A program made the translations under genes and the position numbers. Positions 9,191-31,798 of a DNA stretch of 37,163 nucleotides are shown here, in pieces (within the stretch, counting starts at the first letter, position 1; each line of letters starts with the position of its first letter). This DNA comes from Planctomycetota bacterium (GTDB taxonomy: Bacteria > Planctomycetota > SZUA-567), in NCBI GenBank assembly GCA_031289115.1, contig JAITQC010000107.1:1-37163 (forward strand), in the 5' to 3' direction. The notes beneath the pieces are model-generated. The model saw only the letters and a list, made by a program, of their open reading frames with translations. It did no database searches and was not told the origin of the DNA.

Positions 9191-9311
9191 CCCCACTGTG
9201 TTTCCCCCTTGCCTCCTGGTAAACGGCGAGGTGCCAGGCCGGAGCTAGCTAGAAAGGCCAAACCAGTGCTCCCCATGGTTTCCCAGCCAGACAGCGGGTG
9301 GAAAACAATCA

Positions 9312-9339
9312 TTGCTTAAAGGCCGGAATCGGCTATAAT
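9312..9339 (+). promoter_or_regulatory. Sigma70 promoter for the radical SAM gene
   Basis: TTGCTT (9312-9317), a 16-base spacer and a perfect TATAAT (9334-9339) lie 85 bases before the ATG at 9424. Transcription should begin near 9346, giving a leader of roughly 75 bases. The rest of the gap from 9191 holds no gene that I can support. Confidence 0.75.
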
Positions 9340-9423
9340 TTGATCTATAAAAGCACCCGTGGCGTTAACTCCCCTGAAACGGCCACCTTTTTTTTCCCCA
9401 AAAAATTGCCCGGCGGAGTTTGT

Positions 9424-10818
9424 ATGCTAAATGTTCAGCGTCTCGCTAATTACCTGGCTGCCAAAGGAATGTCCACCCTCCTCCCCACTCTTTCCAAACT
9501 CTCCCCCGACATCCTTATCGGCATTATGGATCACTTGAGCCGAGCCGGCATCAAGCGCATGAGCGAACAGCATCAGGGTAGCCCCGAGGAACTGGAGCGC
9601 CGGGTCGACGCTGCCCGCGGCTTTTTTGACATGGCGAAACGCAAGTTTCCCAGCCTGTCCCGGGCCACCCAGCAGAAACTCGCCTTCAACCTGTTTTTCC
9701 ACGCCATCCATGTCGGCGACGAGACGCGTCGGAGTTACCTTGCGCTCCATGGTGAAGTGCCTCCCTTTTTCCTCCTGATTTCCCCCTCCATGGCCTGCGA
9801 CCTCCACTGTAGCGGCTGTTACGCCTGGAAATACCCCAAGAACCAGTCGCTCCACCCGGACAAGGTGCGGGAAATTCTCCGCGAGGCCAGGGACGAGATG
9901 GGTATCTACTTCATCGCCATCACCGGCGGCGAACCCACTTTTTGGCCCCACCTGGAGGAGATCGCCGCCGAATTTGACGACATGTTTTTCCTGGTTTACA
10001 CCCATGGACAACGTATTGACGCTGCTATGGCCAAACGCTTCGCGGATCTGGGCAACATCTATCCCGCCATTTCGATAGAGGGCGACCGTTCACTCACCGA
10101 CGCCCGGCGGGGGGAAGGCGCCTACGACCGGGTAATGTCGGCCATGGCCAACCTTAACCAAAATGGCGTTCTTTTTGGCTTTAGCCTCACCCACACCCGT
10201 AACAACCACGACTACACCTGTTCCGACGCCTTTTTTAACACCATGGTGGCGGCGGGGGCGGCTTTCGGCTGGGTGTTCCAGTACATCCCCATTGGACGCG
10301 AACCCGACTTTAAACTGGTCCCGACTGCAGAGCAGCGCCTAGAACGCCGGGAACGCATCCAAGCCGTTCGTAAAGACAAGCCCATTCTGGTGTTTGATTT
10401 TTGGAATGACGGCGACGCGGTCGACGGTTGCCTGGCCTGGGGTCGGCGCTATCTCCATATTACCGCCCGGGGCTATGTCGAACCCTGCGTCTTTGTGCAT
10501 TTCGCCAAGGATTCCATCCATGACAAAAGCCTGGGTGAGTGCGTGCGTTCGGAGTGCTTCCGCGAGATGCGTTCCCGGGCGCCCTTCCACACCGATCTCC
10601 GGCGTCCCTGTCCCCAGATTGATCATCCGGAAATTTTGAAGGAAATTGTCGCCAAATACGGGCTCTTCGGCACCCATGAGGGGGCGGAGGACATCATTGG
10701 GCCGCATTATGACGCCCTCTGCGCCATCGCCGATGCCTACAGCAAGGAATTAAGTGACACTGACGCCCAGAAAGTCGCCGCTCCAGAGTCAACTTGCGCC
10801 GGTTGCCTGGCGGAATAG
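9424..10818 (+). CDS. Uncharacterised radical SAM protein
   Basis: The 464-residue protein carries the radical SAM cluster motif CxxxCxxC (CDLHCSGC, Cys 125, 129, 132), followed by the SAM-binding ITGGEPTFWP and a TIM-barrel-like middle. Further cysteines occur in CLAW, EPCVF, ECVRSECF, RPCPQIDH and the last residues CAGCLAE; they could bind a second Fe-S cluster as in SPASM/twitch proteins, but the spacing does not exactly match a pattern I know. The N-terminal 110 residues are helical and lack motifs. ATG 9424 is preferred over the upstream ATG at 9298 because GGAG lies 5 bases before it and because the TATAAT promoter at 9334 lies inside the longer frame. It has its own promoter and stands alone, so the substrate is unknown. 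It is not HpnH by sequence. Confidence 0.85.
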   Translation: MLNVQRLANYLAAKGMSTLLPTLSKLSPDILIGIMDHLSRAGIKRMSEQHQGSPEELERRVDAARGFFDMAKRKFPSLSRATQQKLAFNLFFHAIHVGDETRRSYLALHGEVPPFFLLISPSMACDLHCSGCYAWKYPKNQSLHPDKVREILREARDEMGIYFIAITGGEPTFWPHLEEIAAEFDDMFFLVYTHGQRIDAAMAKRFADLGNIYPAISIEGDRSLTDARRGEGAYDRVMSAMANLNQNGVLFGFSLTHTRNNHDYTCSDAFFNTMVAAGAAFGWVFQYIPIGREPDFKLVPTAEQRLERRERIQAVRKDKPILVFDFWNDGDAVDGCLAWGRRYLHITARGYVEPCVFVHFAKDSIHDKSLGECVRSECFREMRSRAPFHTDLRRPCPQIDHPEILKEIVAKYGLFGTHEGAEDIIGPHYDALCAIADAYSKELSDTDAQKVAAPESTCAGCLAE

Positions 10819-17711: not shown

Positions 17712-18734
17712 ATGTTTGCCAGCATGCGTTGGGACTACTGGGAGCTTCTCGGTCTCGCCGGGGAATTCCTCTTTTTCTCCCGCCTCTTGGCGCAATGGCT
17801 AGCTTCCGAAAAAAGCGGCCGACCAAGAATCCCCCGGGTCTACTGGCACCTCTCCCTGGCCGGGGCGCTTATCCTCGCGGTTTACGCCCTGCACCTGGGT
17901 AGCTTCGCCGTCCTCCTGCCCCAGCTGTTTGGCCTCCTGTTTTACTGGCGAGGTCTACGTCTCGACCAGGCTGAGCGCCGGGAAAAGGCGCGTCGCCAGC
18001 GCCTTGGCCTTGACCGCCCCGATTACCCCTGGCCCAGCCTTTCCGTGATAGTGCCAGTACATAACGAAGAGGCGGCGCTTGCCAAAACCCTGGAGAGTAT
18101 CCTGGCCCAAGCAGGACCGGGCGAGGAATTCGAGGTGGTGGTGGGCCTGAACGGCTGTCAGGACAACTCCCGGGAAGTTGCTACCCGTTACCCGGTCCGC
18201 CTGGTCGAGGATCCCCGTTCCGGCATCGGCTTTGGGAAAAACCTCGGGGCGGGAATGGCTAAAGGGGAGGAATTGGTTTTTGTCGACGCCGACACCATCC
18301 TTCCCCCGGGGTCGCTACGCCAGCTCCGGGAAGCGGTGGCGGGCGTTCCCCACTACGTTGGAACCGTGCCGGGTTGGCCTGACCGGGGCGGCGGCGTGGT
18401 CAAGCTCTGTTTCCTGCTCGCCAATTTTATCACCCACCGCCGGCGCTGCCACTCCCCCGGCGGAGTGATAGTGATTGACCGCGAAACCTTCCAGGCTATC
18501 AACGGGTTTGACGAAGTACTCCCCACCAGCACTTCCACCGACCTAATCTGGCGCGGGCTTAAGACCGGGGCGGAATATGTCTACATCAACTCCTTCACCG
18601 CCGTCACCTCCATCCGCCGCTTCGAGAAAACCGGAGTGATCCACCAGATGCTGGACTGGCGGGACAGCCATCGCGCCCTCCGGGAAAACCACCGCGAGCG
18701 GGTGGTGGCGAAAACCTACTCTCCCTATCGCTAA
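17712..18734 (+). CDS. LAB_N domain fused to family 2 glycosyltransferase
   Basis: The 340-residue protein joins two domains. Residues about 8-85 match the LAB_N (lipid-A-disaccharide synthase N-terminal) membrane domain: LAGEFLFFSRLLAQWLASEK, IPRVYWHLSLAGALILAVYALH and an aromatic third span. Residues about 105-330 are a GT-A glycosyltransferase 2 domain: LSVIVPVHNEEAALAKTL, GLNGCQDNS, FVDADT (metal-binding D192/D194), GGVIVIDRETFQAINGFDE and STDLIWRGLKTGAEYVYI. The usual acidic ED before the late D is replaced by ST. It should transfer a sugar at the cytoplasmic face of the inner membrane, perhaps onto a lipid carrier or lipid A. GGGGAG precedes the ATG. The domains are clear, but acceptor and donor are unknown. 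Confidence 0.85.
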   Translation: MFASMRWDYWELLGLAGEFLFFSRLLAQWLASEKSGRPRIPRVYWHLSLAGALILAVYALHLGSFAVLLPQLFGLLFYWRGLRLDQAERREKARRQRLGLDRPDYPWPSLSVIVPVHNEEAALAKTLESILAQAGPGEEFEVVVGLNGCQDNSREVATRYPVRLVEDPRSGIGFGKNLGAGMAKGEELVFVDADTILPPGSLRQLREAVAGVPHYVGTVPGWPDRGGGVVKLCFLLANFITHRRRCHSPGGVIVIDRETFQAINGFDEVLPTSTSTDLIWRGLKTGAEYVYINSFTAVTSIRRFEKTGVIHQMLDWRDSHRALRENHRERVVAKTYSPYR

Positions 18735-18789: not shown

Positions 18790-18811
18790 AGGCCATGAAG
18801 GCCTGTTTTTT
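18790..18811 (+). terminator. Short hairpin with T run, candidate terminator of the glyA-GT2 transcript
   Basis: AGGCC (18790-18794), a five-base loop and GGCCT (18800-18804) are followed by G and six Ts. The stem has only five base pairs, so termination strength is doubtful. It lies just downstream of the predicted cbiMN start site and could instead shape that leader. Confidence 0.4.
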
Positions 18812-18860
18812 CACCTCAATTTCGTGTTTTCCCCACAAACCCGCCCCTGAAGGGACTACA

Positions 18861-18892
18861 GGCGTAAGACGCTTACGCCCCGTTCTCTTTTT
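18861..18892 (+). promoter_or_regulatory. Perfect inverted repeat directly upstream of cbiM
   Basis: GGCGTAAG (18861-18868), a three-base centre and CTTACGCC (18872-18879) form a perfect 8-bp inverted repeat, followed by CCGTTCTCTTTTTG. The repeat ends 18 bases before the Shine-Dalgarno GGAGG at 18898. It may act as an attenuator/terminator hairpin in the leader or as a DNA operator for a metal-responsive repressor. I do not see conserved sequence of the cobalamin or NiCo riboswitch. Confidence 0.55.
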
Positions 18893-18908
18893 GCACTGGA
18901 GGTGGGTC

Positions 18909-19967
18909 ATGCATATGGCAGACGCTTTGATTTCCCCGGCGGTGGGTGGGGTGTTTTGGGCCGCCACAGCTGGACTAGCGGCGCATTCGGCAAGAAAAAT
19001 CCGCGACAATCCCGAACAACCTGACATTCCCCTGATGGGGGTGATGGGGGCTTTTGTCTTCGCCGCCCAGATGATCAATTTCTCCATCCCCGGCACTGGT
19101 TCCAGTGGCCACCTGGGTGGGGGTTTGTTACTGGCCATTCTCCTGGGGCCCTGGCGAGGTTTCCTGACCCTGGCCTCGGTATTACTTATCCAATGCCTCT
19201 TCTTCGCTGACGGCGGTCTTCTCGCTTGGGGTTGTAACGTATTTAACCTCGGTTTTTACACCTGTTTCCTGGCTTATCCCCTCCTCTACCTACCCATAAG
19301 AGGCGCCCAACCCACCCGGCGGCGGCTAGTGATAGCCTCACTGGTGGCGGCGGTGGTTGGCCTGCAACTGGGAGCCTTTAGCGTAGTTTTGGAGACCCTG
19401 TTCTCAGGCGTGACCAGCCTAAGCCTAGGGGCCTTTATCCTCCTCATGCAACCCATACACTTGGCGATTGGCGTGGTCGAGGGACTGGCCACCGCCGCTC
19501 TGGTTTGCTATGTCTGGCGGGTACGGCCGGAAATCCTCGCCCCAGCTAGCGGGCAAAGTGGCACCGGCGCTGGTTCGGCCATTCTTTCGCGCCGGAGTGT
19601 CCTTTTAAGCCTGGCCGTTCTAGCCCTGCTGGTCGGAGGCTTCCTCTCCTGGTTCGCCTCCCCGTCTCCCGATGGTCTAGAATGGGCGTTGGAAAAAACC
19701 GCCCCTGCCGAAGCGGAAGTGACGCCAGAACCGGATATCCGTTCCACCCTGGCGGTCTGGCAGGAAAAAACCGCCATCCTCCCGGACTACGGCTTCCCGG
19801 CCGACCCGGAAGAGCCAGCCTCCCTGGAAGCCGAGGAAGCGGAAGCCTGGCCAGCGGTAAACGCTGGCACCAGCCTGGCGGGAGTGGTGGGTAGCGCCCT
19901 TACTCTGCTACTGGCTGGCCTGGTAGGCCTGGTGGTATCGCGCTGGCACCGACTCGCTAGCGGCTAA
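18909..19967 (+). CDS. cbiM: Cobalt/nickel ECF transporter substrate-binding protein CbiM fused to CbiN-like PDGLE domain
   Basis: CbiM is the S-component that binds Co(II) or Ni(II) in an energy-coupling-factor importer. The start at 18909 is fixed by GGAGG six bases upstream and by MHMADALISP: in this family the free N-terminal Met-His takes part in metal binding, so the longer frame from 18795 would destroy the site. Residues 1-215 are the multi-span CbiM domain (QMINFSIPGTGSSGHLGGG, LLAILLGPWRGF, GCNVFNLGFYTCFLAYP). After a linker come a TM at about 225-250, the SPDGLEWALEK motif (about 253) and LPDYGFP, and a final TM: the CbiN/PDGLE module. Total 352 residues, so this is a CbiMN fusion. 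Acidic residues are dense between 260 and 320. Co versus Ni is undecided. Confidence 0.93.
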   Translation: MHMADALISPAVGGVFWAATAGLAAHSARKIRDNPEQPDIPLMGVMGAFVFAAQMINFSIPGTGSSGHLGGGLLLAILLGPWRGFLTLASVLLIQCLFFADGGLLAWGCNVFNLGFYTCFLAYPLLYLPIRGAQPTRRRLVIASLVAAVVGLQLGAFSVVLETLFSGVTSLSLGAFILLMQPIHLAIGVVEGLATAALVCYVWRVRPEILAPASGQSGTGAGSAILSRRSVLLSLAVLALLVGGFLSWFASPSPDGLEWALEKTAPAEAEVTPEPDIRSTLAVWQEKTAILPDYGFPADPEEPASLEAEEAEAWPAVNAGTSLAGVVGSALTLLLAGLVGLVVSRWHRLASG

Positions 19968-20080: not shown

Positions 20081-20971
20081 ATGACCGGGGCGTTTTCTCC
20101 GGGGCGTCCACGCCGGGTTCCCGGGTCAGCCAGACCGAAGCGGGGGCAGTCCTTGCCGATCCTCCAGCAATGCTTGACCTGGTTACGCGACTTCGACCAT
20201 CTGGCCGACAGCCGCTCCACTCCCCTTAACCGCCGCCAGCCAGCGGCGGTTTTCCTGGTCGCCATCGCTTTTCTAGTCACCCTGATGTCCTTCTCCCGCT
20301 ACCAGGTGGCCGCCCTCCTCCCCCTAGCTATTTACCCCGCCTTACTCTGGGGATTTTCCCCGCTTTCCCTGGCAAGGCTAGCAAGCTTCCTGTTGTTGGT
20401 GGAACCCATCATCATTTGCTTGGGCATTCTCCACCCTTGGCTTGACACCCGTCCGGTGACTGTGGCCGGCTTTGTCTTCGCCCAGGGCTGGCTGGTCTTC
20501 CTTTCCCTTCTGGTGCGGGGAACCCTCGCCACCTCCTCGGTGCTCCTGCTGACAACGACACTTGGGCTGGACGGTCTGTGGCGGGGATTACGCCAACTAC
20601 GGGTACCCGCCTGGCTGGTTTTACAAATGGCCTTGACTTATCGTTACATATTGGTTTTGCTGGAGGAGACGGAACGCATCCTCACCGCCTACCGCCTGCG
20701 CTCGGGAAGAAGGACCGGGGTACGCCTGGGAGACTGGGGCTCCCTGGCTGGCGGCCTGTTTCTACGAACTTACGACCGGGCCGGAAGGGTGCACCAGGCC
20801 ATGCTCCTACGAGGTTTTGCCACCCACAACCCGTCCCCCGTCCCACCCGGCACCTGGGTGGCACAGGACTATCTTTATGTACTCCTCTGGTTCGCCTTTT
20901 TCGCCCTGGTCCGAACCCACGACCTGCCGTCCTGGCTTGGACAAAGCCTGGAAAGGATTTTCCCTTGGTGA
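20081..20971 (+). CDS. cbiQ: ECF transporter transmembrane protein CbiQ
   Basis: CbiQ is the T-component coupling ATP hydrolysis by CbiO to the CbiM substrate binder. The conserved part begins at about residue 29 (LTWLRDFDHLADSRSTPLNR) and includes several hydrophobic spans, the TTTLGLDGLWRGLRQLRVP segment, MALTYRYILVLLEETERILTAYRLRSG and the second coupling motif AMLLRGF, as expected for the coupling helices. The frame opens at ATG 20081, but the first 24 residues are Pro/Arg-rich and have no match to the family and no good Shine-Dalgarno; TTG at 20153 (residue 25) is a plausible true start. Its stop overlaps the cbiO start by four bases, indicating translational coupling. Confidence 0.9.
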   Translation: MTGAFSPGRPRRVPGSARPKRGQSLPILQQCLTWLRDFDHLADSRSTPLNRRQPAAVFLVAIAFLVTLMSFSRYQVAALLPLAIYPALLWGFSPLSLARLASFLLLVEPIIICLGILHPWLDTRPVTVAGFVFAQGWLVFLSLLVRGTLATSSVLLLTTTLGLDGLWRGLRQLRVPAWLVLQMALTYRYILVLLEETERILTAYRLRSGRRTGVRLGDWGSLAGGLFLRTYDRAGRVHQAMLLRGFATHNPSPVPPGTWVAQDYLYVLLWFAFFALVRTHDLPSWLGQSLERIFPW

Positions 20972-29611: not shown

Positions 29612-30838
29612 ATGACTGATGCAACTTTGCCAACCGCCCCGGAGAAAAAGCCGGCTTCTTTCCTCGCCGCCCGTCAACCCAAACATATCCTGCTTTTCAT
29701 TCTGGCCCTGGCGGTGCTGATCGCCCTGGTTTACAGTCTGGCCAGTAACCCTAGGCGCAAAACCCCCTTGACCCTGGTGTCGGCTAATTCCCAGCTTTAT
29801 CTGGAAACCAGTGACTCTCCCCGGCTATTCAAGGCTTTGGCGGATTTTCCCCTGTGGACCCGGGAACGCCGCGCTAGCGCCAACGAACCCTGGAACCATA
29901 TTTTAGGAGCGCTAGCCAGCCGCATAGGTACGCAAGTCCACGCCCTGGGAGCCAATCTTCCCCTAGCTTGGCTTGCCTCCTCCCGCCAGGCCGCCCTGGC
30001 CCTGACGGGAAAAGACTCAGGCGCCACTGGGGAGCTCGCCTGGGTGATTTTCCTGGATGTTCCTAACCCCGGCCAGGTCCTCCAGGAGCTTCCCGGCCTT
30101 TTGGGAATAACGGCTGTCCCCGACTCGGAAGGAGAGGAAAATATCCTGAGCCTTACCGGTAGCGACAAGGGCAGTCTTTGCCTCGGGGTGGCCGGGGAGT
30201 GGCTTCTTGTCGCTTCCGACCCCGATCCCGTTCGTTTCGCCTTGGCCGCCAGCCCCGCCACCCCAAGCCTGGCCGGGAGTGGCGTCGTTCCCGACTGGCG
30301 CAGCGGTGACTCGCTACGGGGTTTTGTGCATCCCCTGTTGGGGAGCCGGGCGGTTTGGCCCTCCGCCAGCGGATTCGATCCGGCAGCCCGGATATCCTTC
30401 ATCGCCCGCCACCTGGGTGGCGGCGAAGTCGACCTCCATCTGGAGGTCCGGGAAGTCCTGGGTTCCCCCATCTTTTGGCTCTGGCAACTGTTAAAGCAGA
30501 TTTTATCCATAACCGCCATACTCTGCCTGGTATTAACCGCCGCCATACTCGCCCTGATGCTGGGATGGGGAAGCTGGCTTAAATACCTTGCCCAGAGGGC
30601 TGGGATTTATAACGCACCCTCCCCCCTGGCGGTCACCCCCTCGCCGGCTTTCCAGGAAGACAGCGCCCTCCCTGGCGAAAACGTCTTGACCCCCACCCCT
30701 CCTTCCAGCCTAGAGGAAACAGCAAAACCACGCCAGAAGCGCCGCGCTCCGTCCACGCGTTCGGTGGAGGAAAAAATCCGCCCCCAACGACCCCGGCCCC
30801 GCAAGAAATCCTCTGGCCAGGGAGACAGGGAAGCGTAG
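29612..30838 (+). CDS. Uncharacterised two-TM membrane protein
   Basis: This 408-residue protein is not recognised. It has an N-terminal TM (about 25-45, ILLFILALAVLIALVYSLA), a roughly 240-residue extracytoplasmic domain, a second TM (about 297-320, ITAILCLVLTAAILALMLGWG) and a basic, proline-rich cytoplasmic tail of about 80 residues ending in many Lys/Arg. The middle domain has beta-rich stretches (LAWVIFLDVPNPGQVLQELP, LCLGVAGEWLLVASDPDPVRFAL) reminiscent of DUF3352-like proteins that occur in some PVC and cyanobacterial genomes, but I cannot prove it. AAGGGAG precedes the ATG. It lies between hom and the YdjC-type gene on the same strand. Confidence 0.72.
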   Translation: MTDATLPTAPEKKPASFLAARQPKHILLFILALAVLIALVYSLASNPRRKTPLTLVSANSQLYLETSDSPRLFKALADFPLWTRERRASANEPWNHILGALASRIGTQVHALGANLPLAWLASSRQAALALTGKDSGATGELAWVIFLDVPNPGQVLQELPGLLGITAVPDSEGEENILSLTGSDKGSLCLGVAGEWLLVASDPDPVRFALAASPATPSLAGSGVVPDWRSGDSLRGFVHPLLGSRAVWPSASGFDPAARISFIARHLGGGEVDLHLEVREVLGSPIFWLWQLLKQILSITAILCLVLTAAILALMLGWGSWLKYLAQRAGIYNAPSPLAVTPSPAFQEDSALPGENVLTPTPPSSLEETAKPRQKRRAPSTRSVEEKIRPQRPRPRKKSSGQGDREA

Positions 30839-30889: not shown

Positions 30890-31798
30890 ATGCCTAGCCG
30901 GCACCTGATAGTTACCGCGGACGATTTCGGTCTCTCCCCCGGCATCAACGCTGGTGTGGTGCTGGCCCACCGTCAGGGCATCCTCACATCCGCCTCCCTT
31001 CTCGCCACCGCCCCTTTTGCCGAAGCGGCCGCCAGTCTTGCCCGCGAGAATCCTGGTCTTGACATTGGCGTCCACCTTAACCTGGTCCGTGGCAAACCCG
31101 TCCTCCCTCCCGCCAGCCTTCCCAACTTGGTTGACCGGGACGGAGCCTTCCGTCTTTTTCGCTGGCGCCATCTTAGTCCCGCCTTTCTTGGCGAGGCGGA
31201 AAGGGAATACCGGGCCCAGATCGAAAAAAGCCTCTCCCTTGGCCTTGTCCCCAGCCACCTGGATTTCGAGAAACACCACGCCTGGCAGGCCGGCCTTTAT
31301 CGCCTGGCCTCCGACTTGGCCAGGGAATATGGTATCGGAGGGATTCGTAACCTAGCCGAGCCACTCGGCTGGTCCCTAAGGCATGGCAACTGGCCGGGCT
31401 GGCGCCGCTTGGTGATGTCCCTGGCTCTTCGTAGCGGCGTCCTGCTTGCCCGCCATTCCACCGCGCCCGGGCTACTACGCCCCGAGCATTTCCTGGGCCA
31501 ACTGCATATTGGCCAGCTAAACCAGGAGGCGTGGCTCAAAATCATCCCGCATCTCCCTCCAGGGATTAGCGAAGTGATGACCCACCCAGGCCAGCGGGAA
31601 AAAGATAGTAATCCTCCCAGTCTGGGTTGGCTTGGCGAGCACCGGGAGGTTGAGCTTTCCGCCCTTCTGTCCCCGGCGGTGAAAAGAGCGATTGAAAGCA
31701 ACTTCGTGCGCCTGGTCGGCTACCGGGACCTAATGCCAAGCCGGTTGGAGCAAGTCGATTCCAGCCAAACAGGAAAGCCGGTATTCCTTGACAGGTAA
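30890..31798 (+). CDS. YdjC/ChbG-family carbohydrate deacetylase
   Basis: The 302-residue protein has the family metal site: VTADDFGLSPGINAGV (two Asp, residues about 10-11), GVHLNLVRG (His), HLDFEKHHAW (His pair, where most relatives have HVDxHxH) and EVMTHPG. Relatives remove acetyl groups from N-acetylated oligosaccharides such as chitobiose; HpnK of hopanoid operons is also in this family and shares the TADDFG...GILTSASLL start. No hopanoid or chitin genes lie nearby, so the substrate is open. GAGGA precedes the ATG. Its 3' end overlaps the promoter of the chemotaxis cluster. Confidence 0.86.
   Translation: MPSRHLIVTADDFGLSPGINAGVVLAHRQGILTSASLLATAPFAEAAASLARENPGLDIGVHLNLVRGKPVLPPASLPNLVDRDGAFRLFRWRHLSPAFLGEAEREYRAQIEKSLSLGLVPSHLDFEKHHAWQAGLYRLASDLAREYGIGGIRNLAEPLGWSLRHGNWPGWRRLVMSLALRSGVLLARHSTAPGLLRPEHFLGQLHIGQLNQEAWLKIIPHLPPGISEVMTHPGQREKDSNPPSLGWLGEHREVELSALLSPAVKRAIESNFVRLVGYRDLMPSRLEQVDSSQTGKPVFLDR

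Follow-up and report, generated by a model that had tools for sequence, protein, structure and literature searches.

The window analysed here, a stretch of 37,163 nucleotides of planctomycete DNA, encodes a protein in which a LAB_N membrane domain is joined to a family 2 glycosyltransferase (GT2). We propose, with a probability of about 0.45, that this protein is a cytosol-facing GT2 that glycosylates a membrane lipid, probably a phospholipid, bound by a SemiSWEET-like module. The N-terminal part (residues 8-98) is a three-helix half-transporter module, and residues 107-335 form a GT2 domain in which the DxD motif is intact and the usual acidic base is missing. The proposal draws on the kinship of LAB_N with SemiSWEET, the GT2 genes found at 29 of 30 LAB_N loci, the constraint on LAB_N, and the loss of the base with DxD retained. 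The genome that contains the window (G000) is 2.41 Mb in size and 82.7% complete, and the only LAB_N domain above threshold in it is that of the fusion.

The preliminary description had placed LAB_N at residues 8-85 and a GT2 domain with FVDADT at residues 105-330, and both assignments were borne out (Table 1). In the Pfam search, LAB_N matched at 65.8 bits, well above its cut-off of 26.7 (E 3.8e-18, model positions 1-70 of 71), and Glycos_transf_2 (PF00535) matched residues 111-219 at 73.3 bits, against a cut-off of 23.3 (E 2.9e-20); the LpxB catalytic domain PF02684 was absent among the Pfam rows of the protein. The AlphaFold2 model (mean pLDDT 81.7, pTM 0.77) has helices at residues 9-35, 42-62 and 65-98, followed by a GT-A fold; thus, the GT2 fold occupies about residues 107-335, and the PF00535 match covers its first half only. 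The best structural matches of the model were GT2 enzymes (6p61, Z 22.1, 2.3 A over 175 residues; WrtF, Z 21.9), so that membership in the GT2 family is indicated both by a PF00535 score over the cut-off and by the GT-A fold. We take FVDADT to be the metal/nucleotide-binding DxD motif of GT2. A frameshift or an assembly chimera was ruled out, as the same head-to-tail order in one stop-free frame is found in 11 other genomes of the same family.

Table 1. Positions in the window of the fusion gene and of its parts
Feature	Position	Strand	Remarks
LAB_N-GT2 fusion CDS	17712..18734	+	340 aa plus stop, ATG start; found complete in 11 further genomes of the family
GGGGAG, purine-rich	about 8 bases 5' of the ATG at 17712	+	sequence reading
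LAB_N (PF07578), residues 13-82	17748..17957	+	Pfam and AlphaFold2; three predicted membrane helices
Glu18 in helix 1	17763..17765	+	E in 12/12 fusion proteins, Q in 19/19 stand-alone LAB_N compared
GT2 catalytic domain, GT-A fold, residues 107-335	18030..18716	+	Pfam, AlphaFold2 and structural matches
FVDADT, residues 190-195	18279..18296	+	D192-A193-D194-T195 invariant in 12 fusions
STSTDLIW, residues 273-280	18528..18551	+	site where GT2s usually have the late acidic (ED) motif; E, D replaced by T274, S275
TSIRRFEK, residues 299-306	18606..18629	+	conserved basic motif of the GT2 subfamily

LAB_N is a three-helix relative of the SemiSWEET/PQ-loop proteins, akin to them at the superfamily level only; the lipid A name of the domain is therefore misleading. 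This kinship is already known and is not new here. A LAB_N profile of 25 sequences (6 fused, 19 stand-alone) was aligned by hhalign to 18 MtN3_slv (SemiSWEET) sequences with a probability of 95.0% (E 3.5e-8, 78 columns); these represent 18 of 20 loci, one being dropped for a stop in the match (L216) and one left out as a partial match (L226). As controls, none of ten column shuffles exceeded 1.3%, and reversing the alignment yielded 0.17%; LAB_N compared with GtrA gave 0.14%. The stand-alone LAB_N rows taken separately reached 93.8%, and the six fusion rows 69.4% (E 4.3e-5). When the LAB_N profile was compared to PDB sequences, 10 chains were listed up to E 10, of which the best seven were SemiSWEETs (top E 0.011). 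MtN3_slv (PF03083) was absent among the eight Pfam families listed at E up to 1 for the fusion protein.

A tandem LAB_N protein (L023:7974-8603, + strand) was modelled, with low confidence, with helices in the 3-1-3 arrangement of SWEET transporters. Its first domain matched SemiSWEET 5uhs (Z 9.7, 1.7 A over 80 residues) in a weak model (pLDDT 65.7, pTM 0.42), the alignment and the good match being limited to the first half. Superposition of the whole seven-helix model on SWEET 5cth (174 residues, Z 7.9, 7.1 A) proves nothing. Since designed helical proteins came close to this score (8e0l, Z 9.0), the structural match backs the profile result and is insufficient alone. The fold search with the whole fusion was swamped by GT-A domains and thus provided no test of the LAB_N fold. 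Sugar transport and dimerisation as in SemiSWEET are putative properties of the fused LAB_N.

Among the 12 fusion proteins, the mean identity was 0.68 in LAB_N versus 0.59 in GT2 and 0.34 in the linker. Fused LAB_N matches the stand-alone domain at G14, F21, R24, Q28, W29, E33, P41, W45, S48, G51, Y58, Y78 and R80, and there are four consistent differences (stand-alone Q18, S38, F44 and G70 correspond to E, P, Y and P in the fusion), where the fusion columns are from six of the 12 proteins and E18 was read in all 12. The retention of invariant residues, the consistent changes and the higher conservation speak for fused LAB_N as a putative working module with changed specificity, as opposed to a bare anchor. 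The alternative, in which LAB_N is a mere membrane anchor for GT2 with no role in transport or lipid binding, appears rather doubtful to us: the polar and aromatic residues kept as in stand-alone LAB_N are unexpected of a bare anchor, as is a domain more conserved than the catalytic one in 59 of 66 pairs. It agrees, however, with the existence of GT2-only relatives in the same family and order, with the second copy in G001, a GT2-only protein with a single hydrophobic segment (residues 13-31) where LAB_N would be, and with the GT2 tree, where the fusions do not form one clade, allowing for LAB_N loss.

LAB_N as such is common (166 of 392 genomes in the Planctomycetota search). The suggestion that stand-alone LAB_N often lies near polyprenyl-phosphate glycosyltransferases was confirmed for the neighbour, and for its type it was supported by matches below cut-off. 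Among 30 stand-alone LAB_N loci, the best-scoring ones of one phylum (Planctomycetota), a GT2 lies no more than about 1.5 kb away in 29, and on the same strand in 28 of these. A GT2 was alongside at 0/20 MtN3_slv, 0/6 LpxB and 4/8 GtrA control loci; one set of 20 loci was picked for long frames. For example, in Methylobacter (L022) and Cytophagaceae (L023), the overlapping or closely spaced genes are in the order GT2, LAB_N (tandem in L023) and an ArnT-like enzyme. The GT2 partners in these two operons match the ArnC and PgfS models, and the GT-C enzyme of L022 matches the ArnT model, all below cut-off. In related genomes (L120, L124, L125), a GT2 adjoins LAB_N, and in L120 a PMT_2 enzyme does so as well. 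Hence, the GT2 partners of stand-alone LAB_N are, where typed, ArnC/DPMS-like in sequence, and some are followed by a GT-C enzyme. Given the GT2 neighbours and the fusions with PMT_2, GT87 and LpxB, LAB_N thus accompanies enzymes that make or use lipid-linked sugars.

Several other domain combinations were observed, each with an adjoining GT2. LAB_N is located at the C-terminus of a GT-C enzyme in L162:491-2605 (+; Pfam matches PMT_2, PMT and LAB_N) and in L177:1935-4094 (-; read by the script model only). Two LAB_N units precede a GT87 enzyme in one protein in L163:1965-3911 (+), and in L168:2076-3407 (+) LAB_N is followed in one frame by what appears, by eye, to be a metallophosphoesterase.

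The fused GT2 did not turn out to be of the polyprenyl-phosphate type seen beside stand-alone LAB_N. Its closest NCBIfam models were TIGR04283, with 87.4 bits, short of the equivalog cut-off of 182 (E 1e-24), and MftF, with 64 versus 280 bits (E 8.7e-18). The ArnC model NF007986 gave 12.7 bits against a cut-off of 529, leaving the domain outside the curated DPMS/ArnC/GtrB models, and the HpnI model gave 26.8 of 310 bits. In the structural ranking, DPMS (5mlz, Z 18.5) and ArnC (9bhc, Z 18.2) were placed below many sugar-acceptor GT2s. Judging by these scores, the fused GT2 belongs to a branch other than the ArnC/DPMS type that accompanies stand-alone LAB_N. With regard to a possible HpnI/HpnK-like pairing, one YdjC gene (L116:2922-3929, -) was found next to a GT2-only relative and another (30890-31798, +) in the window, 12 kb from the fusion; both match HpnK under its cut-off of 232.6 bits (185 and 155 bits for the pair). 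Between the YdjC gene of the window and a homoserine dehydrogenase gene, there is an ORF of 408 aa (29612-30838, +) with no Pfam match at E up to 1e-4.

In inverting GT2 members, the catalytic base is usually an acidic residue of the late ED motif. This motif is missing in 18/18 members of the subfamily (12 fused, 6 not), which mostly have Q-G-T-S-T/S-D instead, whereas most outgroup GT2s have ED, EE or DD at this place (13 rows, two of which are the same protein; these exclude L200 and L204, which contain stops, and L208, which spans one). The alteration to STSTDLIW pointed out in the preliminary description is thus real with respect to the lost ED; however, because the motif is absent in fused and unfused members alike, it is a trait of the subfamily that is not due to the fusion. 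This loss, ED to TS in the window protein and shared by all 18 relatives, is what one would expect if the GT2 domain were a pseudoenzyme that now serves as a binding or regulatory partner. Such an outcome is highly improbable in our view: DxD and the donor-site residues are conserved, DAD being kept in 17/18 members (NVD in the second copy of G017), and 44 of 219 GT2 positions are invariant across the 12 fusions. According to the available part of PMC5526996, no catalytic base is required for the acceptor phosphate in PfDPMS; DPMS is a GT2 whose substrate is dolichyl phosphate. As DPMS-type GT2s do not need the base either, GT2 membership rests on fold and profile. The missing base would be explicable by a phosphate acceptor, by a retaining mechanism or by a base located elsewhere that is as yet undiscovered.

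The search for proteins with the same domain order showed that the architecture is real and that it is no singleton: 12 of the 16 genomes of the family carry the complete fusion (G000-G003, G005, G006, G008, G010-G013 and G015). The GT2 part is found alone in G004 and G007, and neither the fusion nor the GT2 part was found in G009 and G014 of the same family. G016 and G017, which belong to the sister family within the order, encode GT2 and LAB_N separately. There was no full-length match outside the family among 392 Planctomycetota genomes, with up to five candidates scored per genome. The closest four full-length matches in named genomes were Planctomycetota MAGs (L002-L005, 58-62% identity), and of 215 matching plasmid records, none covered 80% of the query. 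The LAB_N-GT2 fusion was not found in the literature search; as most subscription papers were out of reach, we do not claim that it is undescribed. The architecture is conserved within one planctomycete family, and the pairing of LAB_N with a glycosyltransferase is of an already known kind.

In the LAB_N tree, which included six of the 12 fusion proteins, the six fused rows are split from the 19 stand-alone rows by one branch (100/97), the nearest stand-alone row being L094 of G017; a single origin of the fused LAB_N would be the simplest view. In the GT2 tree, the fusions do not form one clade, and that of G003 groups with the second copy of G001, which is GT2-only (97/93); this would fit an old fusion followed by losses of LAB_N.

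The operon provided no lead to the function, because the neighbours of the fusion vary by genome and are not conserved. DprA adjoins the fusion in L002 and L107 and FIST in L108 and L110; a metallo-beta-lactamase-fold gene is near it in the window and L107, an Asp/Glu racemase gene in L111, and a carbamoyl-phosphate synthase gene in L112. The clusters common to fusion loci have two or three members each; one of them (c4, 146 aa, three loci) overlaps the 3' end of the fusion and looks spurious. In the window, the fusion is followed by a CbiM-PDGLE fusion gene (18795-19967, +), CbiQ (20081-20971) and an ABC ATPase, i.e., a cobalt-type ECF transporter. Another gene of the window (9298-10818, +) encodes a radical SAM/SPASM protein (506 aa) whose radical SAM domain is preceded by about 160 residues; no NCBIfam equivalog was over cut-off for this protein among the matches shown.

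We also considered a one-chain synthase and flippase for a polyprenyl-phosphate sugar that feeds a periplasmic GT-C enzyme, similarly to GtrB-GtrA-Gtr, with LAB_N replacing GtrA. Stand-alone LAB_N occupies exactly this place in the operons of L022, L023 and L120, and LAB_N is homologous to SemiSWEET. Nevertheless, this explanation is unlikely for the fusion, since the fused GT2 is not DPMS-like, no GT-C gene is alongside the fusion at the loci read, and no PMT_2 was found in 7 of the 12 fusion genomes (G000, G006, G008, G010, G011, G013 and G015) and no GT87 in 10 of 12, including the same seven (genomes 61-92% complete). For the genome of the window, 82.7% complete, the search of these two GT-C families gave no match. 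Of the 12 fusion genomes, 9 lack a DPMS-like GT2 close to the LAB_N neighbour of G001; stand-alone LAB_N occurs only in the three fusion genomes that have this GT2 (G001, G003 and G005). It appears that the stand-alone pathway was lost and the fusion kept, and a flippase feeding a GT-C enzyme is unsupported in most of these genomes, as they lack stand-alone LAB_N, its GT2, and PMT_2 and GT87. The absence of GT-C enzymes weakens the three-component reading, with the genomes being 61-92% complete and the GT-C search comprising PMT_2 and GT87.

The remark that no other lipid A gene is nearby holds for the typed ORFs of the window (a part of all its ORFs). Lipid A is probably made in these bacteria, because LpxC is present in 18/18 and LpxB in 16/18 related genomes as separate genes; in G000, they are on contigs other than that of the fusion (LpxC on C196, LpxB on C122). 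A substrate would therefore exist for an enzyme of LPS or lipid A core synthesis in which LAB_N would, as in LpxB, be a sign that lipid A precursors are acted on, and LAB_N-LpxB fusions are described in Chlamydiaceae. Still, this role is quite unlikely: the LpxB of G000 is separate and, LAB_N being found only once in that genome, has no LAB_N above threshold, none of the typed window ORFs is a lipid A gene, and the neighbours of LAB_N are mostly GT2 enzymes, which are found beside none of the six LpxB loci.

Returning to the glycosylation of a lipid held by the LAB_N module, the orientation can be predicted from the K/R counts in the LAB_N region (4 in loop 1, 0 in loop 2 and 9 after helix 3). 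By the positive-inside rule, the N-terminus would be outside, and the C-terminus with GT2 in the cytosol. The protein would be an inner-membrane enzyme with a cytosolic GT2 acting on a nucleotide sugar. Two chains may pair via LAB_N in a SemiSWEET-like manner, with the nucleotide sugar presumably bound by DAD and the head group of a membrane lipid, the putative acceptor, offered at or in the LAB_N cavity. Since the base is missing and a phosphate needs none, the accepting group would probably be a phosphate, that of polyprenyl phosphate or of another phospholipid; the sugar would then be transferred without a base. The glycolipid would be released or translocated, LAB_N either moving the product to the outer leaflet or merely holding it. 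Polyprenyl phosphate is a candidate to which two features point, the missing base and the LAB_N partner.

Several observations run counter to this lipid-glycosylating reading. The fused GT2 is not recognisably of the DPMS/ArnC type, and GT2-only relatives without LAB_N exist (G004, G007, G016 and G017). Seven of the 12 fusion genomes, G000 included, are without PMT_2, GT87 and the DPMS-like GT2, so that these seven showed no enzyme that would use a flipped polyprenyl-phosphate sugar. In addition, the phosphate acceptor is deduced from a missing residue, which a retaining mechanism or another base fits as well. A more far-reaching proposal, which we regard as doubtful and speculative, would make LAB_N the bacterial counterpart of eukaryotic MPDU1, a protein of the SemiSWEET fold that handles or flips lipid-phosphate sugars, here welded to a base-less GT2 to give a one-chain build-and-move enzyme, with Glu18 retuning the cavity to suit its glycolipid.

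The initial notion that the fusion hints at LAB_N and sugar transfer acting together holds insofar as the fusion is real and GT2 enzymes are neighbours of LAB_N, whereas the lipid A name misleads and the fused GT2 is of another branch. This pairing, shared across most of one planctomycete family, suggests a module that handles sugar-bearing membrane lipids. The SemiSWEET homology, the near-constant GT2 neighbour and the fusions with GT2, PMT_2-type and GT87-type enzymes make LAB_N a concrete candidate for a small flippase; in the available text of PMC11127046, direct evidence of flippase activity is said to be lacking for the candidate movers of undecaprenyl-phosphate sugars. Of greater interest in these results, and directly testable, is the wider view that LAB_N is a SemiSWEET-type partner of enzymes for lipid-linked sugars, and the fusion provides a one-chain protein with a soluble donor for testing its candidacy.

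Among glycosyltransferases, LpxB belongs to family GT19 and has a GT-B fold. The closest described parallel in architecture is found in Chlamydiaceae, where, according to the accessible portion of PMC3937554, LAB_N is fused to LpxB and the fusion has arisen from neighbouring genes. In both cases, an N-terminal LAB_N is attached to a membrane-associated glycosyltransferase acting on a lipid; the partner there is LpxB, whereas here it is a GT-A GT2 in a host that has a separate LpxB. The three-component GtrB-GtrA-Gtr glycosylation, in which GtrA is a proposed flippase (PMC11127046, available text), is alike in pairing a GT2 with a small membrane protein. It differs in that LAB_N is no GtrA (hhalign 0.14%), the fused GT2 is not DPMS-like, and G000 has no PMT_2 or GT87 match. 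The SemiSWEET/PQ-loop proteins share a homologous three-helix unit with LAB_N; they include MPDU1, whose role was given as unknown in 2012 in the part of PMC3281891 at hand. However, LAB_N has a motif of its own (R..QW..SE....P..FW..S), and the MtN3_slv model misses the window protein. Finally, the TIGR04283 and MftF glycosyltransferases are the best NCBIfam matches of the fused GT2, which differs from them in scoring far under both cut-offs and in the absence of the ED base motif.
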